From contig NZ_PAQR01000011.1 of the NCBI RefSeq assembly GCF_002709775.1, positions 60,533 through 124,532 on the forward strand: 64,000 nt of DNA, in the 5' to 3' direction. Origin of the DNA: Thalassospira sp. (GTDB taxonomy: Bacteria > Pseudomonadota > Alphaproteobacteria > Rhodospirillales > Thalassospiraceae). A program made the translations under genes and the position numbers. Positions 7,685 through 21,761 of this stretch are shown in pieces. How positions within the stretch are numbered: position 1 is the stretch's first letter; every line of letters begins with the position of its first letter. The notes under the pieces are model-generated. The model made no database searches. It was not told the origin of the DNA and worked only from the letters and a program-made list of their open reading frames with translations.

Positions 7685-8785
7685 TTAATCCTGTTCGAGA
7701 ATGCTGTGAAACAGTCCTGTAAGTCTATTGGCAAACCGCGCATTGCTGAAATCCTCCTGACACATTCGATAGGCCGCATCGCACATTTTCGTGGTCTCGG
7801 CGGGTGAATTGATAGCCTCGATGATCGCATTTGCAAGCCCTTCTGGGTCTTTAGGCGAACAAAGCTGCCCTGTTTCGCCATCACGAACGAATTCCGGCAG
7901 GGTTGCGATATTGCTCGTAATGACCGGGACATTGGCAGCCATGGTTTCGAGCACGACAAGCGGTTGAGCCTCGTTGGCGTAGTGGCTGGGAAAGATGAAG
8001 AGGTCTGAGTTTTCGAACGCCGAACGTTTCTGGCTTTCCGACACAGACCCCAAACAGGTTGTTGCCGTCTTCAACTGATAGCGCCCGAGCATTACATCCA
8101 GATCCGCGTCGCTGATGTCGCCAGCGGCCCCGGCAATGGTCAAGGTGAAGCCGATATCTCGTGCGCGGAGAATAGCACAGGCGGTAAGCAGGGTTTCGAT
8201 GCCCTTGGCATGAAACAGATTGGACAGCCACAAAAGCCTGACCGGAGCATACGGTGTCCAAGGTTTGGTTGGCGGCGTGTGAAAGGCTTCGTCGCTCAGG
8301 CAATTGCGGATGATGGTGGACTTGCAGTTCAGGCCAGCAATTTCAGAACGCAAACTTTCACCGAGCAGGATGACGGTCTGATCTTTGAAAACCAGTTGTT
8401 GAAAAAGCTCCGCCCATTTTGATCGCCGCATGCTTGGCAAACCACGGCCGTGCAGGTGCAGGGCTGCCGGGACACGAAACATCCGTGCCACAAGCACATA
8501 CAGGCAATCGCGGTAATAGGCGAAACCAGTTGGGGCAAAGCTGATATAAAGGGCGTTCACCCGCGGTAACGCCCAGATCAATCGCATCAGTAGCCAAAGG
8601 GCCAGACCGACCTTGCGAAGGGAAAACCGGTTTAAATCTGACAGTGTCCGGGCAAAGCACATTTCAATGACATGCAGATCGAAGTCTTTCGCCAAGGCCT
8701 CAATGGCGAACTGGTTCATTTTGGCCGCCCCATGCATGAGTGGTGGTAATTGAACCATGGCGATGATTTTCGGGCCGTCAGTCAT
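7685..8785 (-). CDS. Glycosyltransferase, GT4-like (GT-B fold)
   Basis: The product has 366 residues. The N-terminal half carries a hydrophobic patch (about residues 58-75), probably a membrane-facing helix. The C-terminal GT-B half has VRLLWLSNLFHAKGIETLL (acceptor/donor hinge), FENSDLFIFPSHYANEAQPLVVLE with the usual Glu, and NVPVITSNIATLPEFV. This is the Glycos_transf_1 pattern: retaining transfer from a nucleotide sugar to a lipid-linked acceptor. The start ATG overlaps the stop of the preceding gene by 4 nt (ATGA). It is last in the minus-strand train of seven. The sugar is not predictable. Confidence 0.85.
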   Translation of the reverse strand: MTDGPKIIAMVQLPPLMHGAAKMNQFAIEALAKDFDLHVIEMCFARTLSDLNRFSLRKVGLALWLLMRLIWALPRVNALYISFAPTGFAYYRDCLYVLVARMFRVPAALHLHGRGLPSMRRSKWAELFQQLVFKDQTVILLGESLRSEIAGLNCKSTIIRNCLSDEAFHTPPTKPWTPYAPVRLLWLSNLFHAKGIETLLTACAILRARDIGFTLTIAGAAGDISDADLDVMLGRYQLKTATTCLGSVSESQKRSAFENSDLFIFPSHYANEAQPLVVLETMAANVPVITSNIATLPEFVRDGETGQLCSPKDPEGLANAIIEAINSPAETTKMCDAAYRMCQEDFSNARFANRLTGLFHSILEQD

Positions 8786-9534
8786 CGTACATCCCTTCCG
8801 ACAAACATCTCAAAATTGCGGAACTTGGCAACAGTCATCCATATTGATGGCGGAAGGTGAGCGCGATAACGCGCGAGAACGGCTGCACGAGTTTGGCGAT
8901 AAAGTTCGTCTGGTATCCTTGCGAAGTGGCGGGTGTCCGGTCGAAAGTTGCGTTCGATCAGTCGCGTATTCATCCGTTGCATGGTGGTCTTTGCAAGGCA
9001 ACAGGCACGCAGATAGAAATCAAGATCAATGCAGCAGGAAAGATCAGTCGTATAGCCCCCGGCGCGGGCCCAGACAGATCGGTGCATGGCAAGGGACGAG
9101 TGATGTAGCGGATTGCCAGCATAAAGACGCGATGGCGTAAACTGCTGTGCCTCACCGAAGGTTGGTCGGCAGGGATCGGATACGGCCCGTGCGAAGACAA
9201 GTTGATTGGGATTGCGGGTGAGGATTTCGACTTGCCGGTCCAGTCGGCTCGGCATGGAGATGTCGTCAATATCCTGAATCGCAATCAAATCTGTCGGGCT
9301 GTTTTCAATGGCGAGGTTAAGTGCAGCACCGCGACCAATCTTGCCGGAATGAAGGAGCGTCAGGTGTGGATCATTTTGCCAGTTCTTTGGTGCGGCGAGG
9401 GGGGTAGTCGAGCCATCATCGACAATGACGGCATAATCCTGGGGCCCGAGGATCTGGCACAGATTGTCGAAATAGCGATCCAGAAAAGCCTCGCCGTCCC
9501 GCACGGTTGTGATGACGGTTATCGGATCACGCAT
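8782..9534 (-). CDS. Glycosyltransferase family 2 (GT-A fold)
   Basis: The product has 250 residues. PITVITTVRDGEAFLDRYFDNL opens the Rossmann-like GT-A domain; VIVDDGSTTP is the first Asp motif, and AIQDIDDISMPSRL holds the DXD-like metal/nucleotide site (DIDD). HHSSLAMHRSVWARAGGY and DLDFYLRA follow, as in GT2 enzymes. It is an inverting glycosyltransferase expected to add one sugar of the repeat unit at the inner membrane. It overlaps its upstream neighbour by 8 nt and its downstream neighbour by 4 nt, so it is translationally coupled. Confidence 0.88.
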   Translation of the reverse strand: MRDPITVITTVRDGEAFLDRYFDNLCQILGPQDYAVIVDDGSTTPLAAPKNWQNDPHLTLLHSGKIGRGAALNLAIENSPTDLIAIQDIDDISMPSRLDRQVEILTRNPNQLVFARAVSDPCRPTFGEAQQFTPSRLYAGNPLHHSSLAMHRSVWARAGGYTTDLSCCIDLDFYLRACCLAKTTMQRMNTRLIERNFRPDTRHFARIPDELYRQTRAAVLARYRAHLPPSIWMTVAKFRNFEMFVGRDVR

Positions 9535-11044
9535 AGATCTCTCCCCATGAAATGGTCAGGGTGGCGCTGGTCCCGTGCTTTGTTTTCGCGCTAATCCGCG
9601 TTGCGATCCCGACTGCGCTAAATGCCGCCTTTGAGGTGATTTGAAGTGGCGTGTCTGCGGTGATTTTGATCCCGAGTTGCGGGCAGATAGCTGTGTCCGG
9701 ACTGGTTTGTTCGAGCTCTATTGTGCCATCAATCAGAATTCGGAATAGATCTACCTGACCCGGTTCGTAATCGGGGAAGTGGTCCGTGATGATGACGCGC
9801 TTGTCTTGAAACTCGATCTGCCTGTGGCCGATGATACCCGTAAGATCGAACGTCACTTCAACCCGGTTGACTTGGATGCGGCGGCCAAGCAGAAAGCGGG
9901 AAAAGCTGCTTTCTCCCATGGCGGGAAGTGGGGTTGAGGCATTGTTGTAAAGGCTTGGCACATCCTGTTCGCCGCCGGTTGGCGGTAACAGGATGCGGGC
10001 TGATTTTCCTTGGACGGAAACAATCACCGGTGCGCCGGAAACGTCGAAACCCTGTTTGCCACAAAGCGTCATTTGCGCATGATAGTTGGGACATGAAAAC
10101 TGCGCGACAATTGATGACCTCCTGATTGCTAGCTCAGGATGTTGGCGATTGTCCCCGGCAGGAACTTGTGCGGCTTTGAGCAGCCAATAACCCGCAAAGG
10201 CAAGGTAATCGTCATGGCGGTTATAGCTGTACCATCCTGGTGTGTCCGGGTTATCTGGGCCAGGGTGTTCCGGAAGTAGTGCCGGAGCCAGCAGGTTCAG
10301 CGGTAGTTGGTCTGCCTCGCGGCAGGCATCTTCCATGCGGTGGAGGATTGCGTCGGCTGCGTCGAGATATCCGTTTTTTAACAACATATAAAGCGCACAG
10401 GCTGCCCCGAAACTCTGCCCCGCACCACGTCCGAGCAGGTTTGCATAGCCATGCGTGCCAGTAAGGTGTGCAAGTGTCGCGGTCGCGTGATCGGCAATGC
10501 GTCGATGTCGCGGATTTTCGCTATCGGATAGAAGGGCTGTGCAAAAGGCATGGTATTGCGGGGAAAAACACTTTGGCCGATCAAGGAAAACTTGGGCGCG
10601 CCAATAGCGCAGCAGGATTAAGGCTAGGTGGGCGCGGTTGATGAGCTTCGACACAAATCCGGTTTGCCGTTTTTGGCGATTGATCAGACCAAGCATCTGC
10701 CAGTTAGCAACGTCCGGGCATTGCTGTTTGGTGCCGCGCAGGATTTCGCGAGTGATTTCGGTTTTGAGGCCCGGTGTATGAAGCAGCGCATACTCGATGA
10801 ATTCGCGGTGGTAGGTTTTATCCTTCGGGTCAGATTTCAGCGATACCAGTGCGCGTTCGATGTTCCGGGCAAATCGGTTCGGATCGATCCGGCTCCAGAG
10901 ATTGACGCCAAAGGCCTTGGCGTAGAAATCCGGTTGCTCGAACTGGCCGTTTTCGCGTTGACGTTTCGCAAGATCGTCTGCGATCTGGTGGGCGAGGGTT
11001 TGGCAACGTTGGCGGATATCATTGTCTGTCAGTCGAAGTGACAT
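9527..11044 (-). CDS. Predicted alpha/alpha-toroid plus beta-sandwich protein, possible polysaccharide lyase/epimerase-like
   Basis: I do not recognise the family. The 505-residue product starts with a helical N-terminus. About residues 180-300 hold repeated helix pairs with aromatic and small residues (GQSFGAACALYMLLKNGY and YSYNRHDDYLAFAGYWLLKA). About residues 325-505 look all-beta. This order resembles heparinase II/III-type lyases and some uronosyl epimerases, but no catalytic Tyr/His/Asn set can be assigned. No signal peptide is seen, so a cytoplasmic site is likely, which is odd for a lyase. The start at 11044 follows a strong GGAGGTGAC; a longer in-frame extension is rejected. It overlaps the previous gene by 16 nt. 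Confidence 0.6.
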   Translation of the reverse strand: MSLRLTDNDIRQRCQTLAHQIADDLAKRQRENGQFEQPDFYAKAFGVNLWSRIDPNRFARNIERALVSLKSDPKDKTYHREFIEYALLHTPGLKTEITREILRGTKQQCPDVANWQMLGLINRQKRQTGFVSKLINRAHLALILLRYWRAQVFLDRPKCFSPQYHAFCTALLSDSENPRHRRIADHATATLAHLTGTHGYANLLGRGAGQSFGAACALYMLLKNGYLDAADAILHRMEDACREADQLPLNLLAPALLPEHPGPDNPDTPGWYSYNRHDDYLAFAGYWLLKAAQVPAGDNRQHPELAIRRSSIVAQFSCPNYHAQMTLCGKQGFDVSGAPVIVSVQGKSARILLPPTGGEQDVPSLYNNASTPLPAMGESSFSRFLLGRRIQVNRVEVTFDLTGIIGHRQIEFQDKRVIITDHFPDYEPGQVDLFRILIDGTIELEQTSPDTAICPQLGIKITADTPLQITSKAAFSAVGIATRISAKTKHGTSATLTISWGEIYA

Positions 11045-11772
11045 GTCACCTCCAGACCAAGAGATTGCCCCGCCTTGAGGTGGTTGAGCGGCACTGCCTG
11101 AATCTCTGGACAACGCCGTCCCGCACGTTCGCGCAAGCGCCACAGCAGCTTTTTGATTGGTGAAATGCGCCACAAAAGCCGAGAAACCCCGTTCGGCACG
11201 GAGAGAGTGAAAAAGCGATTTGCCCAGCGCAGCCAGACCTGATCAACCGGATCGCGGGGCAACAGGCGAGCATGAATGATCCAGTGATCGTCGCGGTCAC
11301 GCAGATACATGTATGGATCAAAACGGCCAGCACCGTCGGCATCCTCAAGGCGCACGGTGATGGTCCCGCCATCCTGTCCAACGAGCTGTACCTGTTTGGT
11401 GGGATAAAGCCGGTATTTGTCGCTGTTGCAGTGGGTAAACGTCCTGTCCGAAATGATCCCGTATTTGATGGCGCTTTTGTCAAACACCAGCCGGATTACG
11501 GCATCTTGCAGGAGAATATCATCGAGCGCCTGAACTGAGAGACGAAGTTGGATTGTGTTCGGCGATGTTTGTTCCGTTTCGTACGTAATCTGCAACCGGC
11601 CATCCGATAAGTGCCAGATATCATCTCGGTGAATGGCATTTCGGGGTTGGTCGGTAATTGTGACAAACGAGTGCCGGTCGGAGCATTCCAATCCCCAAGG
11701 TTCAAAATGAATGTCGCCATATTGGCCGCTGATCAGTTTGTTGTCGGAGATCAAAGTTGTCAGTTTCTTCAT
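11029..11772 (-). CDS. Unrecognised 247-residue protein of the polysaccharide train
   Basis: No family is recognised. Residues 1-150 alternate polar and hydrophobic residues with many charged turns, which suggests a beta-rich fold (HRDDIWHLSDGRLQITYETE, GTITVRLEDADGAGRFDPY). Around residues 150-200 there is a basic, Trp/Arg-rich segment (WLRWANRFF, LLWRISPIKKLLWRLRERAGRR), which could touch membrane lipid. There is no signal peptide. The ATG overlaps the flippase stop by 4 nt and its stop overlaps the next start, so it is made with the flippase and the toroid protein. A partner role to the 505-residue protein is plausible but only inferred from the overlap. Confidence 0.55.
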   Translation of the reverse strand: MKKLTTLISDNKLISGQYGDIHFEPWGLECSDRHSFVTITDQPRNAIHRDDIWHLSDGRLQITYETEQTSPNTIQLRLSVQALDDILLQDAVIRLVFDKSAIKYGIISDRTFTHCNSDKYRLYPTKQVQLVGQDGGTITVRLEDADGAGRFDPYMYLRDRDDHWIIHARLLPRDPVDQVWLRWANRFFTLSVPNGVSRLLWRISPIKKLLWRLRERAGRRCPEIQAVPLNHLKAGQSLGLEVTCHFD

Positions 11773-12914
11773 GCCAAGACCTGCTGCTTTATCAGGGCTT
11801 TCTGGCAGGCAAACAGGATCAGAACCAAACACGCCATCCGAAACACGATTAGCACCATGATGTCGGTTGTGGCAGCTAGGCTTGGTAAGCCGAATGCAGA
11901 AGTTGCCATTGTGACGAGGCACAGCCAGCCAATCCATCGGGCAGCGGGATTTTCCTGAAGGATCAGGATTTGGCGGGTCAGAACTGCAAGCAATATCGGC
12001 CAGATTGCGCCCGCCTGAAGGATACCGATCAGATCATCTGATGGGGCGTTATAGACGAGGTGGGCCACGCTGGTGGGGAAGAGGAAAAGCAGACCGGAAA
12101 TGATTGCCATTGGTGCCAGAAGCCAGATATCGCGCAATTTGCCAGTTTGTTGTTTGGCAAACAGGGTTGAGGCAATGGCCGCAATCAATCCGGCACAGAA
12201 CAGGAAAATCCGTTGCGCTAGAAACATCGCATCGTTTCCAAACCCCAACAGTACAAAGTCGAGGTTTGGCACGAAGCCCGCCAGCAGGGTGAAGCCGACA
12301 AGGCCAAAATGGATGCCTTTATCGGTTGGGACGACTTCAGCGGTTCGGGTCGGTGGTGGTTCGAATGCAAATGCCGTTGAAAGTGCTAGGCTTACCAAAG
12401 AGATCGCGGGTGCGATCATATAAAGCGCCCAAAGTGATTGGGTGAGTGAAGCCCAGACCGCGACGGCAATCCCGAAGACCTGACCGGCAACAGCGATTAC
12501 GCCAAGCCGCGAAAACCGGGTTTGGGCAGTAATAATCCAGTCGGGGGCAAGGGCGGCCGCAAGCGGTATAAGGACCAGCGGCCAGTAGTGGCCCATTGGC
12601 AGGCTGGTCGTTGTGGTGATCAGCAGTACTGAGATCGCAGCGATGAGCATGCGAAGTGCCACGACAAGAGCGGCTGTCCGAAAGTGGCGGTCTTGTGCCA
12701 AGCGGACCAAAAGCGGGCCGCTGCCAGCTTGTGTTGCAGTGACGGCAAGACCGATCATGGCGAGCAGCCCGAAATAACTCCCAAGATTGCTTTCTGAATA
12801 GGCGTGTCCGATCAAAACAAGGATCAGCATGCCGCCGAGCCGTGCGATCATGTTCGCCGCGATCAGCCAAAGCGGATAAAGCCCGGACCTTATGAACGAA
12901 AGCCATCTATCCAT
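11769..12914 (-). CDS. Wzx-like oligosaccharide flippase (MOP superfamily)
   Basis: The product has 381 residues and is almost wholly hydrophobic, with about 10-12 membrane helices. It starts with MDRWLSFIRSGLYPLWLIAANMIARLGG, similar to the first helix of polysaccharide transporters, and a long loop (PPPTRTAEVVPTDKG) lies in the middle. Proteins of this type move undecaprenyl-linked repeat units across the inner membrane for Wzy-dependent assembly. ATG 12914 gives an 8-nt overlap with the upstream gene; in-frame upstream starts at 12965 and 12992 exist but none has a clear ribosome binding site. No other flippase is in the locus, which supports the role. Confidence 0.75.
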   Translation of the reverse strand: MDRWLSFIRSGLYPLWLIAANMIARLGGMLILVLIGHAYSESNLGSYFGLLAMIGLAVTATQAGSGPLLVRLAQDRHFRTAALVVALRMLIAAISVLLITTTTSLPMGHYWPLVLIPLAAALAPDWIITAQTRFSRLGVIAVAGQVFGIAVAVWASLTQSLWALYMIAPAISLVSLALSTAFAFEPPPTRTAEVVPTDKGIHFGLVGFTLLAGFVPNLDFVLLGFGNDAMFLAQRIFLFCAGLIAAIASTLFAKQQTGKLRDIWLLAPMAIISGLLFLFPTSVAHLVYNAPSDDLIGILQAGAIWPILLAVLTRQILILQENPAARWIGWLCLVTMATSAFGLPSLAATTDIMVLIVFRMACLVLILFACQKALIKQQVLA

Positions 12915-14115
12915 GGCGCGACAGAATGGATTCGTAAGCCAGATCAACACGGGCTCCGTAGGCATGTAGGAGGTCCCACGCGATTTGATCACGGGCTGTT
13001 AGGGCAAGATTGTGGCGAATGGCCGGCTGGGTGATAAGGGCGCTAACCGCTGTCACCAGTGCTGCGCTATCGCGCGGTGGGATGATCAGGCCGCTTTGAT
13101 GGTTGATGACAGGGCTTCCGGCATCAAATGTCGTGATGACGGCGCAACCGGCTGCCATGGCCTCAATCGTGGCAAGGCTGCTCCCTTCCGTCAGGCTGGG
13201 AAAAACGAAGATGCTTGTGGCCAACATGTGATCTGCAACCTGATCATGGGGCAAGGGGCCAAGCCATCTAACACCATCGGGCAGGTTGGAAAGCAATCCT
13301 CTGGCGCACGGCTGTGCCGCGCCAATCAGGACCAGCTCGACGCGCAACCGGAACTGACGACGAATGGTTTTCCATGCGGCTAGAAGATGGGCGGTGCCCT
13401 TGGCGAGGGACAGGTTGCCGACATAAAGCAGGCGAATGGTGGCGTCGTCACGTGCCGGGCGTTGCCGTGCAAGTAGCGTTTGACAATGCCGCGACATGAA
13501 GGGGATCAGGTATATCTTGTCTTGCGCAATGCCAGCCCGTTCCAAGCCATTCGCGACAGCTTCCGACGGGGCAAAGACAGCGTCGGCATACTGCGCCTCT
13601 GCCGTGCGCCGGCCGGCAAGGAAATCTGAAATTTCCCGATATCGTTTGCCGTGGGCGGCATACTCGTCGGCGACTTGTGCATGACGGGTTTCAGCCAACT
13701 GGCCGGTTACATCCGAGATGGTGATTATATTGCGGGCTTTTGCCCGGCGCATGGCAGGCAGGCTGTAATTGCCTTGACCGTGCAAGATGCTGGCCTTAGG
13801 CGGGTTCCAGGCCGCGAGCAATGACAGGGGAATGTCGGAATATAGGTTTCGGGCTGGCAGGCGAAGCCTTTGGGCCGCTTGTCCAAGCAGATCGGGCAGC
13901 AGATGGCGACCGGGAATGTCACAGAGTGCAGTATCGACGTTGCGGGATTGGGGTTGAACAAGGCCCGTACCATCGTGGCGCCAGAAACTGTCCCACCGAA
14001 CCAGTCTTTTCTGGGCTGCCAGATGTTGGGCGAGAATGCTGGCCTGATCGACGCGGCTGATCAGCCAGATCGACGGTACTGAAGTTGATTTGGGGAGTTG
14101 CGTGATTATCCCCAT
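12907..14115 (-). CDS. Glycosyltransferase, GT4-like
   Basis: The product has 402 residues with a GT-B fold. The N-terminal domain contains ASILHGQGNYSLPAMRRAKA. The C-terminal domain has IRLLYVGNLSLAKGTAHLLAA, the middle VRWLGPLPHDQV, and the donor-site block IFVFPSLTEGSSLATIEAMAAGCAVITT with the conserved EX7E-like Glu residues (EGSSLATIE). The C-terminal helix returns to the first domain, as in Glycos_transf_1 enzymes. Its start overlaps the stop of the first gene of the train by 10 nt and its end overlaps the flippase. The acceptor and sugar are unknown. Confidence 0.85.
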   Translation of the reverse strand: MGIITQLPKSTSVPSIWLISRVDQASILAQHLAAQKRLVRWDSFWRHDGTGLVQPQSRNVDTALCDIPGRHLLPDLLGQAAQRLRLPARNLYSDIPLSLLAAWNPPKASILHGQGNYSLPAMRRAKARNIITISDVTGQLAETRHAQVADEYAAHGKRYREISDFLAGRRTAEAQYADAVFAPSEAVANGLERAGIAQDKIYLIPFMSRHCQTLLARQRPARDDATIRLLYVGNLSLAKGTAHLLAAWKTIRRQFRLRVELVLIGAAQPCARGLLSNLPDGVRWLGPLPHDQVADHMLATSIFVFPSLTEGSSLATIEAMAAGCAVITTFDAGSPVINHQSGLIIPPRDSAALVTAVSALITQPAIRHNLALTARDQIAWDLLHAYGARVDLAYESILSRHG

Positions 14116-15218
14116 TGCCGTGTTTCCGATTTGCGGTGTGCTGCCTGATTGATGGCATTCCAGATCGTCTCGCCGTGATGGACGGGGTCGTTGTTAATGA
14201 TCGCTTTTGCTTGATTTTGGCGCGTGGTTTCGAGCAGGGCGGGGGTGCCTAGAAGCTGTTCGCAGGCCTTGATCCAGTCGTTGGGGACATCAGTGGGCAG
14301 GATTTCCGGCCTGCACAAAATATCGGGTGCACATCCCGTCATCGGACTTGCCAGTGCGACAGTGCCGCATGAGATCGCATCAATCACGCCAACGCCATAG
14401 GCATCATTACGGCTGGGGAAAAGGGCGATCTTGCTGTTGGTCAGGATGGCCGGGAGTTGATCTGGCGGAAGTTGTCCGAAAACGTCTGCCTGATCATTGA
14501 TACCCGATGCTCTTAAAGTCGCGATTGTTTCTGCGATATTCGTGCTGCCGACAATGGCAACCCGAGCGACGATGCCTGCTTTGGATAATGCTTCGGCGAC
14601 CTGGATAAAGACATCAAAGCCCTTTGAACGTGTCGTGCGACCGCACCAGAGGAGATCATATTGCATCCTGTTGGTGCTGGCCTCAGGCACCGAAAATGAC
14701 GGTGGAATGGGGGCAATCGAAATGTTCTCGCGGGCGATCCCGTGGCTTTCAAACCACGTCGCTCCACGCGTGCCGGCGGCGATAAACCCATCAGCACGCG
14801 AAATCATCATTTGGCGCAATCTACGGCGAACCGGATTTGCGTAGGCGGCGTCAGAGCCTGACCAGCCATCAAATTGCAGAACAGTTGGAATGCCGCGTTT
14901 CCAAGCCCAGTTCTGCGCCTGCCATTGCGCGATGCCGAAGCCTGCCAAAACCAGCGCATCGGTCGGTTGGTCGGCAAGGGGGCGCGTGACACCAAATGGT
15001 AGGGTGAAGGTCCGGTTTTCTCCCAGCGGGATTTGCACGCCGGGTAAGGTTACCTGTTCGAAGTTCGCCTTGGGCGTTGCCCAATTTCGTTGAGGTTCGC
15101 GGTGCTGAGTACATAAAACACGCAAGCCACCACCTGCCGAAATGGCGCGGTGATGAAGCGCGTCATAGGCGGCAAATCGGTAGGGTGGCACAAGGTTTGT
15201 CAGTAAAGTCACCCTCAC
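14106..15218 (-). CDS. Glycosyltransferase, GT4-like, first gene of the minus-strand train
   Basis: About 370 residues. VTLLTNLVPPYRFAAYDALH is the typical N-terminal GT-B strand and loop. FDGWSGSDAAYANPVRRRLRQ and ADGFIAAGTRGATWFESHGI form the linker, and YDLLWCGRTTRSKGFDVFIQVA opens the donor domain. SKIALFPSRNDAYGVGVIDAISCGTVALAS is the donor block. Start: I prefer GTG 15218 because AAGGTG lies about 9 nt upstream; TTG 15260 and GTG 15230 or 15212 are alternatives. It faces the GT26 gene across about 150 nt, so 15219-15364 should carry divergent promoters for both gene trains. Confidence 0.82.
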   Translation of the reverse strand: MRVTLLTNLVPPYRFAAYDALHHRAISAGGGLRVLCTQHREPQRNWATPKANFEQVTLPGVQIPLGENRTFTLPFGVTRPLADQPTDALVLAGFGIAQWQAQNWAWKRGIPTVLQFDGWSGSDAAYANPVRRRLRQMMISRADGFIAAGTRGATWFESHGIARENISIAPIPPSFSVPEASTNRMQYDLLWCGRTTRSKGFDVFIQVAEALSKAGIVARVAIVGSTNIAETIATLRASGINDQADVFGQLPPDQLPAILTNSKIALFPSRNDAYGVGVIDAISCGTVALASPMTGCAPDILCRPEILPTDVPNDWIKACEQLLGTPALLETTRQNQAKAIINNDPVHHGETIWNAINQAAHRKSETRQWG

Positions 15219-15364: not shown

Positions 15365-16819
15365 ATGCGCGACGATATTTCACGGCAAAAATCTGCCTTC
15401 TTCGGCTTGCCGCTTGATACGCGACGACGTGCCCAGATCTGCGCCACGATTGGTCTTAGGCTTCGCGAGGGGACTGCGGCGGAGAGCCGAAAGTGTTTCC
15501 GCCATCACAGCCTGAATGCGTGCAAACTGCCCGCCGCCTTGCAGGATGACATGCTGTTTGCCGCTCTGTCTCGCGCAGATTGCCTGTCGGCTGATGGTAT
15601 GGGGATTGTTTGGGCTGCCCGCCTGATGGGCATCAGGGTGTCGGAGCGGGTAACAGGCATCGATCTTATGACCGATCTTCTGGCGCAGTTCGCACAGGAT
15701 GGCACACGGGTCTTTCTGTTGGGTGCGCGGCAAGATGTTCTCGATCAACTGCAGGCAACATTGCCAGCCCGTTTCCCGGGGCTGATGATTGTGGGCACAC
15801 ACCACGGTTATGAGGCGGATGATGAAAAGCTCGCAAGATGTGTTGCCTCAGCCAAACCAGATGCCCTGTTCGTGGCCCTGCCGTCGCCGCGCAAGGAACT
15901 GTTTGTCGATCAGTTTGCGCCCAAGACAGGGTGCCGTTTTGCCATGGGCGTTGGCGGGGCGTTTGATGTTTTGGCCGGTAAAGTTCGCCGCGCCCCGATG
16001 ATCTGGCAACGGGCGGGACTGGAGTTTCTTTGGCGCATCCTGTGCCAGCCGCGTTACATGATCCCGCGATATGCGCGGGGGCTTCTTGGCTTTGCCAAAC
16101 TCGTTTTGCCAAGAGTAGTGAGTTATCAATTCAAGCGCCTGCGTGCGACCATTCAAAAGGTTACGACCCTTTTGGCCCTTTGCGCGATGTTGGCATCGGC
16201 TGCCGAGTTACAGGCCCAACCGGCGACAAGCATGAAGTTTGATCCAGAAAACCGGCAGGCAGCGATCAGCTGGATTGAAACGGAACTCGCCAAGGTCAAT
16301 GAGCCAGATGATGTTCCGCAGCTGATTGATGCGCTTGTTGCCGCTGTCTTGTCAGAGGATCCCGGTTCTGAACGACCTGTTATCGACTGGCCGGCCACGG
16401 AGAACAGCCTTGAAGTGCTGCTTGGTCTGTTCAACCTCGGTAGCGGCACCAGCCGATTTCTGTTGGAAACCATACTGGGTGGTGTGGTTCTGAGACTGCT
16501 TGATCTGCATCCCGAGCCGGATCGACTTGCGGGCATCGTGCGCAGCCGTGCCGCAAATTTGGCAGAGCGTCTTTTTGAGCGTCGCGCGAACCGGCCGGTC
16601 ATGTTTGATGGCGTGCAATCAGAACTTGCCGTGCGCACTGAAAGCACCGCGTCACCCACCATAATTGGCTTTGTGCAACCGTCGGAAATCGAAGAATTAT
16701 GGGGGTATCCCTATCTTGCTGTCCGCTTGGAGAACGCGGGTTCCGGGAGCCTGTGGGATGATGAGGAATACGGGAGTCCTGTTGGCGTTCCAGAGCTTGA
16801 GGATGGAAGCCCCAGATGA
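15365..16819 (+). CDS. WecG/TagA/CpsF (GT26) glycosyltransferase fused to a secreted-type domain
   Basis: 484 residues in one open frame. Residues 40-245 are a GT26 domain: NACKLPAALQDDMLFAALSRADCL, SADGMGIVWAARLMG (catalytic Asp), RVTGIDLMTDLL, VFLLGARQDVLDQL, ALPSPRKELFVDQ and MGVGGAFDVLAGKVRRAP. From residue 252 a second protein seems to begin: a basic n-region, a hydrophobic stretch (TLLALCAMLASAA, about 268-280), LQAQ as a signal-peptidase site, then about 200 residues of unknown helical fold. GT26 enzymes are cytoplasmic or peripheral, so an internal signal peptide is abnormal. Out-of-frame TAG TGA codons sit exactly at the junction (16116-16121). Four-base overlap with the next gene. 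Confidence 0.8.
   Translation: MRDDISRQKSAFFGLPLDTRRRAQICATIGLRLREGTAAESRKCFRHHSLNACKLPAALQDDMLFAALSRADCLSADGMGIVWAARLMGIRVSERVTGIDLMTDLLAQFAQDGTRVFLLGARQDVLDQLQATLPARFPGLMIVGTHHGYEADDEKLARCVASAKPDALFVALPSPRKELFVDQFAPKTGCRFAMGVGGAFDVLAGKVRRAPMIWQRAGLEFLWRILCQPRYMIPRYARGLLGFAKLVLPRVVSYQFKRLRATIQKVTTLLALCAMLASAAELQAQPATSMKFDPENRQAAISWIETELAKVNEPDDVPQLIDALVAAVLSEDPGSERPVIDWPATENSLEVLLGLFNLGSGTSRFLLETILGGVVLRLLDLHPEPDRLAGIVRSRAANLAERLFERRANRPVMFDGVQSELAVRTESTASPTIIGFVQPSEIEELWGYPYLAVRLENAGSGSLWDDEEYGSPVGVPELEDGSPR
16112..16123 (+). other. Probable ancestral gene junction inside the GT26 fusion
   Basis: The bases AAGAGTAGTGAG contain TAG TGA in the +1 frame. In the open frame GTG (16118-16120) could start a protein reading VSYQFKRLRATIQKVTTLL, a textbook signal peptide. 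Two adjacent genes with an overlapping stop and start, joined by a one-base change, would give this picture. A sequencing error or internal initiation at the GTG would also explain it. Confidence 0.45.
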
Positions 16820-18981
16820 CAGAGCATCCCCACCATCCCGATCGTATGGCACGTCCTGCGACAGACCGCTTTGATCCGTCCTTGCGGGATCTGTTAGGCA
16901 TTCTCTGGCAACGGCGCGGGGTGGCGGCACTCGTCTTTGTTTCTGTTCTGATTGCGCTTTTGAGCGTGATTGCCAACTGGCAGGGCGATTATCGCTCTGT
17001 CGCTGAGATCGGTTTTGCGCAGGACAGACAAATCACGGAACGGCTTTCGGAAGATACGGGGCGACGCACCGTCACCGCTCAGGAAATCGAAACCGCGATT
17101 GCCGAGGTGAAGGGTCAGGAAACCCTGTCGACAGCACTTTCGGTTTTGCGGGGTGAGGGCGTTTCTCTGACAGGCGGGCACGCGAACAGCAGTATCTTTG
17201 GTCAGCTCGCCGCGATGATTTCGGGGAAGCCGGATGCGCCAATTTCAGATGATCCAGAAACAGTTGCGACGCTAAACCTTCGAAACGGCCTGGAAGCTGC
17301 CCGGATTGGCAATGCGGCGGTAATCGAAGTTGCCTTCAGCGCAAGGCAGCCAGAAACAGCACAACAGGCCCTCTCGGCGATTGTTGAAAGCTATCTTTGG
17401 CAGCGCGAGGACCGGCAAAAGACGACCATCCGAAGGCAGCTTGGCGAGGCAGAGCGGCAATTCAACACGGCACAAGATGAACTGGCGGGGGTGGAAAACA
17501 ACTTGACCACCGTACAAAGCGGGGCCGGTATTCTTGATGCCGATGAAAGTGCGCGGATGCTGGATCGCATCTATGCCCTGGATGAGCAGGCCGAAAAGCT
17601 GGGGCAGGAAGTCGCGAGCCTTCGGCTGGCGCGCGAAAGCCGGATGGACGCGGCTGGCCTTGATGATCTTTTGGCGATTTCCGATGTCGCGGTGCATCCG
17701 GTCGTAAGCCAAATCTCGTTGCAGCTTGAAACCCGAAAGCAGGAATTTGTCGCCCTTGATCAGCGCTATGGCCCCAAGCACCCGATCATGCAGGGCAAGC
17801 AGCGCGAACTTGATGATCTGCGAAGCGAGTTGGCGGCGGCGGCAGGCAATGTCGCCGATCAGATGGATATCGCGCTTGCCGGGGCGGAAGAAAAGCTTCG
17901 ACTGATAACTGCCCAACGTGATCGTTGGGAAGATCGGGTGGCGCTTCGTAATACAAGCGTTCAGGGGCAGGCGGCCCTGAACCGCACGGTTGTGATGGCG
18001 CGCACTAACCTTCAGGAGCTTGGCCAACAAGTGCAGTCACTTCGCCGCGAAATGGCGGCCTTTCATGGCGATGCGGCGATCCTGCGTGCGCCAACATTGC
18101 CCGGGGCAACCGAATTCCCGACCAAGCGCGATCTGGCGATGCTGGCCATGATGATCGCGGTGTTTGCGGCTGTGGTTGCCGCCTTGCTGCGGCATTATTT
18201 CGATCAAAGTGTTGATGACGAATTTGATCCGCAAGTGGCTTTGGGTATACCGTTTTTTGCCCGCATTCCGGACCAATCTGGCTCAGGAAATTTGGCAACG
18301 GCGCATGATGAGGCCGCGGGGCATTTGGCGGTTCTGATGCGGATCATGGCGCAGGGGCCGGGGACAGAAAGCCAAAGCCAAGCTGATGGACAGGTGATTG
18401 CGCTGGGCTCCGCGCTATCTGGCGATGGCAAAAGCCACATTGCCCATGCACTGGCCGAAAAGCTGGCGGGTCTTGGTGCATCTGTGATCGTTCTTGATGC
18501 GGATTTGCATGATCCGGCACCGCCAGCGTCGCGGCCGCGTGACAGCGAAAACCGCAATGACCTGACCGATGTCATGTCGGGGGTTGTGGATCTGGATACA
18601 GCCCTTGCTGCACACGGGGATGACGAAGGGTATCGATATCTTGGGGCGCGGATGCCGGTGCCGGGAAGCCTTGCGACCGGTATGGTCGACGGCCAGTTGC
18701 CTGATTTGATCAAGCGCCTGCGCACGCGGTTCGATCATGTGATTGTCGATACACCGCCGATCCTATCGGTGGCGGATGGTGTGATTGCACTGGGCCTGGC
18801 CGATGTCAGGTTGTTCGCCCTGCGCTCAGGCCATAGCAAACGCCGCGACATTGCTCAGGCCCTGTCGCAACTGCGCGCGGCCAACATTATCCCGGAGGGC
18901 GTTGTTCTGAATGGTGCCAAGCCCCGTGCCGCCTATGGCAAGGCGCAACCATCCAACGTGATGAAGGGGCAGCTGACATGA
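16816..18981 (+). CDS. Wzc-like polysaccharide co-polymerase with BY-kinase domain
   Basis: The 721-residue product sits in the inner membrane and controls chain length and export. TM1 is at about residues 37-54 (VAALVFVSVLIALLSVIA). A Wzz/coiled-coil periplasmic part spans about 60-435, with LDQRYGPKHPIMQGKQREL as in GumC/Wzc proteins. TM2 is at about 440-462. The cytoplasmic kinase has a Walker A-like LGSALSGDGKSHIAHALAE, Walker A' VIVLDADL and Walker B HVIVDTPPIL. The C-terminus lacks the usual tyrosine cluster; only one Tyr (AAYGK) is near the end, so autophosphorylation control is probably different. Both ends overlap neighbours by 4 nt. Confidence 0.85.
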   Translation: MTEHPHHPDRMARPATDRFDPSLRDLLGILWQRRGVAALVFVSVLIALLSVIANWQGDYRSVAEIGFAQDRQITERLSEDTGRRTVTAQEIETAIAEVKGQETLSTALSVLRGEGVSLTGGHANSSIFGQLAAMISGKPDAPISDDPETVATLNLRNGLEAARIGNAAVIEVAFSARQPETAQQALSAIVESYLWQREDRQKTTIRRQLGEAERQFNTAQDELAGVENNLTTVQSGAGILDADESARMLDRIYALDEQAEKLGQEVASLRLARESRMDAAGLDDLLAISDVAVHPVVSQISLQLETRKQEFVALDQRYGPKHPIMQGKQRELDDLRSELAAAAGNVADQMDIALAGAEEKLRLITAQRDRWEDRVALRNTSVQGQAALNRTVVMARTNLQELGQQVQSLRREMAAFHGDAAILRAPTLPGATEFPTKRDLAMLAMMIAVFAAVVAALLRHYFDQSVDDEFDPQVALGIPFFARIPDQSGSGNLATAHDEAAGHLAVLMRIMAQGPGTESQSQADGQVIALGSALSGDGKSHIAHALAEKLAGLGASVIVLDADLHDPAPPASRPRDSENRNDLTDVMSGVVDLDTALAAHGDDEGYRYLGARMPVPGSLATGMVDGQLPDLIKRLRTRFDHVIVDTPPILSVADGVIALGLADVRLFALRSGHSKRRDIAQALSQLRAANIIPEGVVLNGAKPRAAYGKAQPSNVMKGQLT

Positions 18982-19391
18982 AACTGGCCTTGATGGCGAT
19001 TGCGCTACTGTTGTTGGGCACTGGCGGCTTGGTCTTGTTCTCGGAGGGCAGGGCGCTTTCGCAGCTTGAAAACAAAAGTGCCGGTTTTGCCAATGGGGAC
19101 GGGTTCGCAACTGCATGGGCCGCACAGGAGTTTCTGCAGGCGCTTGCCTCAAGTGATACTGAATGGCGCCAGTCAGCCATTGGAGCACGTTTGGCAGAGA
19201 TGCCATTTGATCCGCTTTTGCTGGGGCTTAAGGCTGAGATGTTGGTCGAGCTGGATGTGACCGCTAGTGCAAACCTTCTGGATCAGGCAACGGCGATTGC
19301 GCCGCGTGATCCGCGAATTCAGGCATTGCGCGACGGGTTACAAGCGCGCCTTCAAAACCTGCCATCGCCAGCATCACCACTGGCAGAATAA
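18978..19391 (+). CDS. Small membrane-anchored hypothetical protein of the polysaccharide locus
   Basis: The product has 137 residues. A single hydrophobic segment at the N-terminus (MALIALLLLGT-like, residues 4-20) is a signal anchor or uncleaved signal peptide. The rest is helical with two repeats similar to TPR helices (DPLLLGLKAEMLVELDVTASANLL and ATAIAPRDPRIQALRDGL). I do not recognise the family; a periplasmic helper of the co-polymerase is plausible. Its ATG overlaps the kinase stop by 4 nt. Its 3' end overlaps the convergent O-antigen polymerase gene by 128 nt. Confidence 0.6.
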   Translation: MKLALMAIALLLLGTGGLVLFSEGRALSQLENKSAGFANGDGFATAWAAQEFLQALASSDTEWRQSAIGARLAEMPFDPLLLGLKAEMLVELDVTASANLLDQATAIAPRDPRIQALRDGLQARLQNLPSPASPLAE

Positions 19392-20589
19392 GGGCCGGCA
19401 TGATCATGACCCAGTCGCCAATGCTGCCCACCACGCACATGACAAACAGTGCGATCACAAGCGCTCGAATGTCCGGTTGCTGGCCGCTGGCGAGAGCCGT
19501 TTTAATGGCAAGGAGGAAGCTTGTCGCCAGGATCAGCATGGCCGGGATGCCAAATATGATCGCCCCGTCGAGCCAGAGGTTATGGCTGCTAAACCAGTTC
19601 GCATTGGTGTTCAGATTCGGGGTGGCGAAATGAGCAATGACGAGCGCAATGCTGTCTGGACCCCAGCCGGTAACGGGGCGTTCCAAAATTGCCTGCAGGG
19701 CCGTGGCCCAAAGATCATCACGCTGGATCAGGTCACTGCGGACAAGGTCGGTGAACCGCGCGAAAAGCTCTGGCGATGCGATGGCAGTCAAGGCAGTGAT
19801 CGCCATGCAGCCCAAAGTAATTCCAAGCAATCGCATGAGTCTGCTGGTGTGTGTGCGGGGTGTCAGAATGACAAACAGCGCCCCGCCAACCAGCGCCATG
19901 ACGAAAGCCAGCCGCGAATGGCTTTGAACAAGGGCAACGGCGAAGATCATCGCCAGTGCCAACCAACCGCCGGCCCGATCAAGCTGTTTGGTGAAACTGA
20001 CCGCACGGGTCGTCTGATAGAGAAACAGACAGGCCACAATGCCAAACCCCATCAAGGTGCCAAAGGCATTGCGATTGGCAAAGCTGCCGGTCCAGTCGCC
20101 CAGATGGGCCTGTTTGGCAAACCAGAATGTGGTGTGCCATCCCATCAGTGCGGCACTGGCCCCCAGAACCACCTGAAGGGCGCATGCAAACACGACCGTG
20201 CGGGCTATGAAGTGGGGAAGGCGCGGCTGCAGGCGTGCAACCAGTGCTGTCAGGGTGATTACGCCGCCAAGCCAGACCAGATAGGTGGCTATGCTCAGCC
20301 AGCCATTAGGTACAAGGGCGATGTGCGGTGCGTTGAACGGGTATGCCTGAACTGGCCAGATGGGCAGGCTTTGCAGGACAGACCAGCCTATCAATGCAGC
20401 GATCGCCAGCCAGAGATAGCGCAGGTGTTTGCCGACCAGAACCGGGCCGGGGCGCAGGCAGATCGTAAGAATGCCAAGACCCGTCAGAATAGCCAGAATG
20501 GCAAGCGCCCAAGGCCTAAGTCCGCCCAACATCAGCGGGGCGAGAATGATCTGTGCCATCAAACAGCTTTGCGCCAGCCAGAGCATCAA
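19264..20589 (-). CDS. O-antigen ligase/Wzy-like polymerase
   Basis: The product has 441 residues and about 11-12 membrane helices. The core block has the Wzy/WaaL look: GDWTGSFANRNAFGTLMGFG, then SHSRLAFVMALVGG, and after a periplasmic loop WGPDSIALVIAHFATP with SSHNLWLDGAIIFGIPAML (the SHN-LD motif of Wzy_C proteins). Such proteins polymerise or ligate lipid-linked repeats at the outer face of the inner membrane. It is transcribed against both flanking genes. Its last 42 codons (RRAMPEFADHAAQ and onward) lie antisense to the end of the small anchored protein gene. Confidence 0.8.
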   Translation of the reverse strand: MMLWLAQSCLMAQIILAPLMLGGLRPWALAILAILTGLGILTICLRPGPVLVGKHLRYLWLAIAALIGWSVLQSLPIWPVQAYPFNAPHIALVPNGWLSIATYLVWLGGVITLTALVARLQPRLPHFIARTVVFACALQVVLGASAALMGWHTTFWFAKQAHLGDWTGSFANRNAFGTLMGFGIVACLFLYQTTRAVSFTKQLDRAGGWLALAMIFAVALVQSHSRLAFVMALVGGALFVILTPRTHTSRLMRLLGITLGCMAITALTAIASPELFARFTDLVRSDLIQRDDLWATALQAILERPVTGWGPDSIALVIAHFATPNLNTNANWFSSHNLWLDGAIIFGIPAMLILATSFLLAIKTALASGQQPDIRALVIALFVMCVVGSIGDWVMIMPALILPVVMLAMAGFEGALVTRRAMPEFADHAAQSPLPDPEGLH

Positions 20590-20675: not shown

Positions 20676-21761
20676 ATGAGAGGGAGCGTTTCTTTAGTCC
20701 CGATTGACGACGGGCGAGGCCTGAGTACTGTGGACCATGAGGTGTCTTTACCGCTCTGGCTGGTGCTGCTGGGGAACCTCGCGATGGGGGCGTCGCTCTG
20801 GCTGATTGCAGCGGGCGGGATGGCTGCCAAGCTTATTCTGCTGGGGGTCTGGATTGCTGTTTTGTGCTGCTACGGCTATCGGCGCCGGTTTGGGAGCAGT
20901 TTTCTGGCGGGGGCGTTGATCCTTGCGGCAATGATCGGTGTGATCGCGACGGGGAGTGGTGCAAACCTCGAAAAGCTGCGCCTGATCGGCAATCTTTTGA
21001 TGCTGCCTGTCGGGCTGTTGGTTGGGCTTACGATTGGCCGGGGCAGCCTTCGTTTGATGATACCGGTTCTTGTGTTTTACCTGCTGCTTTCGAGTTCGTT
21101 TCAGATGACCCATGAGGGTTTGCGTTTTAATCAGCCGTTTCTGTTTCTGGGCTTGTTTGCGCTTTGTTCGGTTGCCCGGTGGCGGGGGCATGGGGGGCTC
21201 GCGGCTGCAAGTGGTGTTGCCATCCTGCTCAGCCAGACGCGGATTGCGGTTTTGGCGATGCTGGTCAATCTGATCGGGATGATCCGGTTTTCCCGCGCCA
21301 TGACGTGGCTTGTTGGGGGCATTGCGCTCGCAGGTCTCGGCTGGATCGCGGCACTTTATCTGCCGCGTCTGTTTCTGACCCACGGCAGTGGCCGGTTGGC
21401 CTTCTGGCATGATTTCTGGGGGCAGTGGCAAGGCGGATCAACCGGGCAAAGATGGCTTGGTTTCGGGGCCGGGGCGGTGGAAGAAATCCTGTCGGGCTAT
21501 CAGTCTTTTGCCTCCTTTGGCGCGCTGCATAACGATCATTTTCGCATCCTGTTTGAAACCGGTCTGCTGGGCGCGGGGCTTTGGCTTGCGGGATGGAGTG
21601 TGATGCTGTGGACGGTGCGTCACGCGCGTCTTGCGATCTGTATTCTGCTGTCGGTGATGCTGACCATGGTGACGGATAATACACTGAATTACGGCCATTA
21701 TCTGATCTGCTGCGGCATGGCTGCCGGGATTGCCGCGCGTGAGGGAACTGAGGATGGATAG
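20676..21761 (+). CDS. Second O-antigen ligase/polymerase-like membrane protein
   Basis: The product has 361 residues and about 10 membrane helices. ILLSQTRIAVLAMLVNLIGM and, after a periplasmic loop, LGFGAGAVEEILSGY with HNDHFRILFETGLLGAGLWL match the core of the O-antigen ligase/Wzy family (the HND-R-ETG block). It is shorter than the 19264 protein and clearly a different sequence, so the locus has two ligase/polymerase-type enzymes. It starts divergently, 86 nt from the other polymerase, and its end overlaps the next gene by 8 nt, which couples it to the toroid protein. Which of the two is polymerase and which ligase cannot be told. Confidence 0.75.
   Translation: MRGSVSLVPIDDGRGLSTVDHEVSLPLWLVLLGNLAMGASLWLIAAGGMAAKLILLGVWIAVLCCYGYRRRFGSSFLAGALILAAMIGVIATGSGANLEKLRLIGNLLMLPVGLLVGLTIGRGSLRLMIPVLVFYLLLSSSFQMTHEGLRFNQPFLFLGLFALCSVARWRGHGGLAAASGVAILLSQTRIAVLAMLVNLIGMIRFSRAMTWLVGGIALAGLGWIAALYLPRLFLTHGSGRLAFWHDFWGQWQGGSTGQRWLGFGAGAVEEILSGYQSFASFGALHNDHFRILFETGLLGAGLWLAGWSVMLWTVRHARLAICILLSVMLTMVTDNTLNYGHYLICCGMAAGIAAREGTEDG

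Follow-up and report, generated by a model that had tools for sequence, protein, structure and literature searches.

A GT26 glycosyltransferase fused across the genus Thalassospira to a probably exported C-terminal domain

The fused gene and its neighbourhood

The window, by which we mean the whole stretch of 64,000 nucleotides of Thalassospira sp. DNA that was analysed, contains at positions 15365-16819 of the forward strand a single open frame of 484 codons followed by TGA; all parts of this gene described below lie on the same strand. The first-pass annotation had read the frame as a complete GT26 domain to which a signal-peptide-like segment and then an unrecognised second domain are joined in frame, and the family searches agreed with that description. 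The Pfam family Glyco_tran_WecG (PF03808, GT26) matched residues 71-236 (15575-16072) with an E-value of 1.4e-54 and 184.9 bits (cut-off 27.4), covering profile positions 1-168 of 168, and the NCBIfam model TIGR00696 matched the GT26 part with 134.4 bits (cut-off 69). The more specific WecG, TarA, and EpsA models from NCBIfam scored far under their cut-offs for the fused protein. For the second half of the protein, no match was found in Pfam or NCBIfam up to E 1.

An alignment of the 28 intact copies from the genus showed residues D77, R95, R224, R235, and Y236 to be invariant in all of them. When aligned to TagA chain 7mpk_A, D77 and R95 took the places of TagA D65 and R83 (the latter also an active-site residue), and S49 that of T37, in a column that holds S or C among the relatives. 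Active-site roles for D65 and T37 are described in the excerpted text of a TagA study (PMC6493773). Profile comparison of the GT26 part with TagA gave an E-value of 9.8e-52, and its structural model matched chain 7mpk_C in Foldseek with an E-value of 2.4e-13, a TM score to target of 0.93, and an rmsd of 1.7 over 202 columns. Judged by profile and predicted model, the GT26 part shares the TagA fold and family. The genus also contains a second GT26 (L143, in genome G019), which is unfused and occupies a 284-codon frame.

The stop codon of the fused gene is overlapped by the ATG of a gene for a Wzc-like polysaccharide co-polymerase/tyrosine autokinase (16816-18981, forward strand). Its product matched AAA_31 with 28.4 bits against a cut-off of 27, and the NCBIfam models Wzc, eps_fam, and EpsF only below their curated cut-offs. 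This gene directly followed the fused gene in all 22 same-genus loci that were compared. Third in the rightward unit is gene H (18978-19391, forward strand), whose small product has a hydrophobic segment at its N-terminus and matched no Pfam family up to E 1. Eleven surrounding genes kept their order and strands in the 22 loci, except for H in L051-L055, where tblastn did not find it and an open frame occupies its place, and for gene K, which tblastn did not find in L055. The 3' ends of H and of the Wzy-like gene I, which is on the reverse strand, share 128 bases (19264-19391), and an H/I overlap of 89-167 bases was present in 21 of the 22 relatives' loci, L047 being the remaining one. Two Wzy_C-type polymerase/ligase-like proteins are encoded at 19264-20589 and 20676-21761, the second of which matched PF04932 only below the cut-off. 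Two reverse-strand proteins (9527-11173 and 11029-11937) were kept in place in the 22 same-genus loci; neither matched any Pfam family at E 0.01 or better, nor any NCBIfam model at E 1 or better. The outer-membrane exporter family PF02563 and the initiating transferase family PF02397 had one match each, on another contig (C63).

A single open frame across the genus

Whether related genomes carry one gene or two at this place was a question raised by the first-pass annotation. Among the 60 genomes searched, the GT26 domain, the signal-like segment, and the orphan C-terminal domain were arranged in one frame in all 29 Thalassospira genomes (the window's own and 28 others), and this frame was intact, with a length of 484-595 codons, in 28 of the 29. 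In the remaining genome (G012, locus L008) a TAA follows codon 183, inside GT26 and upstream of the join. No other same-genus copy has a stop in GT26; this one is located on a 4.7-Mb contig, and its C-domain frame is still open over 303 codons. A profile of the full protein, run over the family, found 29 of 29 copies, all in the one genus. Of the 31 order-mates searched, five had a match: three were plain GT26 proteins in frames of 273-376 codons, and two matched weakly, one in a frame of 910 codons (E 5.6e-4) and one in a frame of 604 codons (E 8.7e-4). The 28 intact copies are related to each other, and counts over them are not independent.

In ten pairs of relatives, dN/dS was 0.14-0.24 for GT26, 0.08-0.39 for the C-domain, and 0.16-0.84 for the join, where changes were few. 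By these ratios, purifying selection acts on GT26 and the C-domain alike and also across the join. It had been proposed that a one-base error sits at the join, where TAG TGA is found in the +1 frame (16116-16121), and a sequencing error or recent frameshift that merged two genes in this genome would indeed leave such a trace. Because the single frame is genus-wide and selection is visible on both sides of and across the join, this reading is ruled out and we give it a negligible probability. Of the 29 same-genus loci, 28 have this frame open, and in the one broken copy the stop lies upstream of the join with the C-domain frame open; although lengths have changed many times, relatives have kept their frames open, and the second domain shows the evolution of a coding sequence. 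We can therefore conclude that the fusion of GT26 with the second domain is genuine, genus-wide in Thalassospira, and old. The test set out at first pass, that relatives show the same fusion with strong conservation across the join, had a divided outcome: the fusion was the same in relatives, but the sequence of the join was not strongly conserved, the conserved properties being its position, its charge step, and its hydrophobicity, with a cleavage-like site in 23 of 28 copies.

The TAG TGA pair had also been taken as an overlapping stop and start left over from two separate genes. These codons are among 14 stops of the +1 frame across the open reading frame, and the pair is private to the window's own copy (L001) and its nearest relative L002 (2 of 28 intact copies), so that this trace at the join looks coincidental. 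A further suggestion was that the second domain has its own translation start inside the frame, at GTG 16118 or at a neighbouring codon, which would make the fusion mostly nominal. This GTG is in frame as residue 252, has 233 residues from there on, and would leave a plausible signal peptide; moreover, start-type codons occur at its column in 13 of 28 copies (GTG in 9, TTG in 4) and in 15 of 28 at that of residue 248, whereas they make up 9% of codons across the GT26 body. However, both columns are rich in Leu, Val, and Ile, so GTG and TTG codons are expected there anyway, 15 of 28 copies have no start-type codon at column 252, and a Shine-Dalgarno-like motif at a fitting distance was present in a single copy (L007, 1 of 28). 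Nothing conserved appears to back an internal start as the main route, and we regard separate translation as improbable.

To describe the distribution of the second domain, a C-domain profile (built from 23 sequences) was run over order and class genome sets, which overlap. It matched 29 of 317 genomes of the order, all within the genus, and 2 of 385 genomes of the class, again both within the genus; it matched 0 of the 288 other order genomes and 0 of the 383 class genomes outside the genus. Within the genomes searched, the C-domain and the fusion thus look restricted to Thalassospira.

The internal signal-like segment and the C-terminal domain

Residues 266-280 (16160-16204) are 15 consecutive residues in which D, E, K, R, N, Q, and H are all absent, and this run is preceded by a 15-residue stretch with four K/R and no D/E. 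A run free of these seven residues was found at the join in all 28 intact proteins, with a length of 15-23 residues, and in all 28 the net charge of the 15 residues before the run was higher than that of the 15 residues after it, which is a positive-inside step. All copies therefore have the basic n-region and uncharged hydrophobic h-region of a Sec signal peptide, yet in an internal position, after GT26. In the AlphaFold2 model (m819afe3a0c88), residues 230-283 (16052-16213) were predicted as one continuous helix that leads from the C-terminal appendage of GT26 into the membrane segment, with mean pLDDT in 10-residue blocks of 67-90 over residues 231-280 and below 50 from residue 281. According to this model, the appendage helix of GT26 seems to be prolonged in Thalassospira into a membrane-crossing helix.

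Directly after the run, the window's protein has a signal-peptidase-I-like site, L-Q-A^Q (16208-16219), with a proposed cut between residues 284 and 285. The corresponding pattern, [AVLISTG]x[AGS]^Q within -4 to +10 of the run end, was present in 23 of 28 copies and in 4.2% of 14-residue background windows in the rest of the C-part, a difference that gives support rather than a probability, because the sequences are related. The words at this site differ among copies (LQA^Q, VKA^Q, VDA^Q, ASG^Q, AVA^Q, AWG^Q, ALG^Q, and others), and in five copies (L011-L015) the pattern was not found at the run end. Judging from these sequence features, export of the second domain is well supported, and cleavage by signal peptidase I is likely. 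The suggestion that a secreted domain is threaded through the membrane from a glycosyltransferase therefore holds for the fusion, which is real, and is probable for the export.

Alternatively, the exported domain might never be cut, with the hydrophobic segment serving as a permanent single-pass anchor, so that GT26 and the periplasmic domain would stay tethered to each other and together connect sugar transfer with export across the membrane. Such a tether would account for the parts remaining fused, and it is consistent with the covalent link retained in all 28 intact genes, the unbroken modelled helix, the five copies missing the cleavage-like pattern, and the hydrophobic run of 18-23 residues in 10 of 28 copies. 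Against it, the run is just 15-17 residues long in the other 18 copies, which is closer to a signal peptide than to an anchor, and the signal-peptidase-like site lies directly after the run in the large group of 23. We consider a permanent tether a serious contender, although the less probable one, and prefer export followed by cleavage.

The C-part is acidic in all copies (D/E exceed K/R by 4 to 21), is 200-287 residues long, and has no cysteine in 26 of 28 copies and one in two. In the window's copy, AlphaFold2 predicted helices in residues 297-404 (16253-16576) and no order in the tail of residues 407-484 (16583-16816), where pLDDT was below 50. The C-domain model was of moderate quality (mean pLDDT 64.7), and a structure comparison made with it found no convincing structural relative. 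Mean column identity of the domain was 29% over 23 sequences, yet its C-terminal Ser-Pro-Arg (16808-16816) was nearly invariant: S and P were present in 28 of 28 intact copies and R in 27, the exception being SPY in L026. The codons for these residues vary (AGC/AGT; CCG/CCC/CCA; AGA/CGA/CGT/CGG), and five copies whose TAA or TAG stop rules out an ATGA overlap with the next gene (L024, L025, and L027-L029) still have the tail, so that the constraint on Ser-Pro-Arg acts at the protein level. A nearly invariant three-residue C-terminus on a fast-evolving domain is a ready bait for a partner search.

A proposed link to polymer export and comparison with known systems

The evolutionary distances of the C-domain were compared with those of neighbouring genes, with the locus background removed by regression on six background genes. 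The correlation was highest with Wzc (r 0.76), followed by H (0.52), the Wzy-like I (0.49), and GT26 (0.42), with 0 of 2000 permutations as high in each case; correlations with J and B were 0.02 and -0.14. This order was unchanged without the deep clade and without L042/L046. Divided over the Wzc-like protein, the correlation was 0.74 for the N-terminal part and 0.68 for the kinase part. Since both parts correlate and D, a background gene, has a value of 0.26, the coupling may need no more than linkage or shared recombination tracts; that Wzc is the adjacent gene likewise counts against a specific interaction. Between the near relatives T. lucentensis and T. lohafexi (L042/L046), identity in 300-base steps drops from 0.80-0.98 to 0.50-0.77 at about 8700-12900, a divergent block whose left edge is the border between GT26 and the C-domain and which contains the C-domain, Wzc, H, and part of I. 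Together with the correlations, this block indicates that the C-domain, despite its fusion to GT26, behaves as part of a Wzc/H module. A separate mosaic block was seen between L049 and L050 at about 13200-14400, over the Wzy-like J, with 0.70-0.80 identity against 0.92-0.99 in the rest of the locus, apart from a step at the end of the locus.

GT26 enzymes are usually regarded as soluble or peripheral on the cytoplasmic side. Our main reading, to which we assign a probability of roughly 0.55, is that the GT26 part is cytoplasmic and membrane-anchored, and that the second domain crosses to the periplasm, is probably released by cleavage, and serves the adjacent Wzc-like co-polymerase. One gene would thus give one polypeptide with parts for two compartments. 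GT26 would remain in the cytoplasm and add a sugar to a lipid-linked exopolysaccharide intermediate, its presumed substrate, while its C-terminal appendage would continue as a membrane-crossing helix that acts as an internal signal sequence and takes the last roughly 200 residues into the periplasm. A probable cut by signal peptidase I after A284 would then leave GT26 anchored in the membrane and release an acidic periplasmic protein, which would consist of a helical domain followed by a flexible tail with Ser-Pro-Arg at its end. The released protein would most likely serve the Wzc-like co-polymerase, for instance in assembly or chain-length control, with Ser-Pro-Arg as a possible docking motif; the Wzc partnership and the docking of the tail are put forward as proposals. 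In its most complete form, the idea would be that of a two-compartment polyprotein, in which a signal peptidase cut at the internal signal frees an orphan, genus-specific periplasmic factor, Ser-Pro-Arg docks on the Wzc-like co-polymerase, and the components for lipid-linked sugar synthesis and polymer export are made one to one from a single gene. We hold this complete version to be tentative and rather unlikely to be correct as a whole. A GT26 permanently joined to an apparently exported domain offers a handle on the coupling of cytoplasmic sugar transfer with periplasmic polymer export.

TagA/TarA (GT26; PDB 5wb4, 5wfg, 7mpk, 7n41) have the fold and family in common with the GT26 part of the fused protein. 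As far as the excerpted source goes (PMC6493773), TagA has a membrane-directed C-terminal appendage that is required for catalysis, is predicted to put arginines in the active site, and mediates peripheral membrane binding. Whereas the TagA protein stops after this peripheral appendage, the Thalassospira helix seems to run on through the membrane and to carry an exported domain. The reaction expected of the GT26 family is transfer of a HexNAc-type sugar to a polyprenyl-diphosphate acceptor; in TagA, ManNAc is passed to lipid-alpha, which need not be the reaction of the Thalassospira GT26. The same GT26 domain occurs in other bacteria (Bradyrhizobium, Roseicella, Microbispora, Synergistetes, and others). 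Among the best 80 of 108 GT26 loci, 58 of which were outside the genus, the 56 outside-genus loci that were readable to their stop end 50-99 residues after GGxFD, compared with 283 residues in the window's protein, and the long GT26 proteins outside the genus are extended N-terminally instead.

Bacterial polyproteins in which signal peptidase cuts at an internal signal include FbcH (cytochrome b-c1) of Bradyrhizobium, the closest precedent, for which no source turned up in the papers searched. FbcH has a cytoplasmic-side protein, then an internal cleavable signal, and then an exported protein. The likeness would be one of layout only, with no sequence relation claimed and with cleavage in Thalassospira being a prediction. 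Seen in this way, the Thalassospira protein is likely a further case of a bacterial protein that is divided between two compartments by an internal signal.
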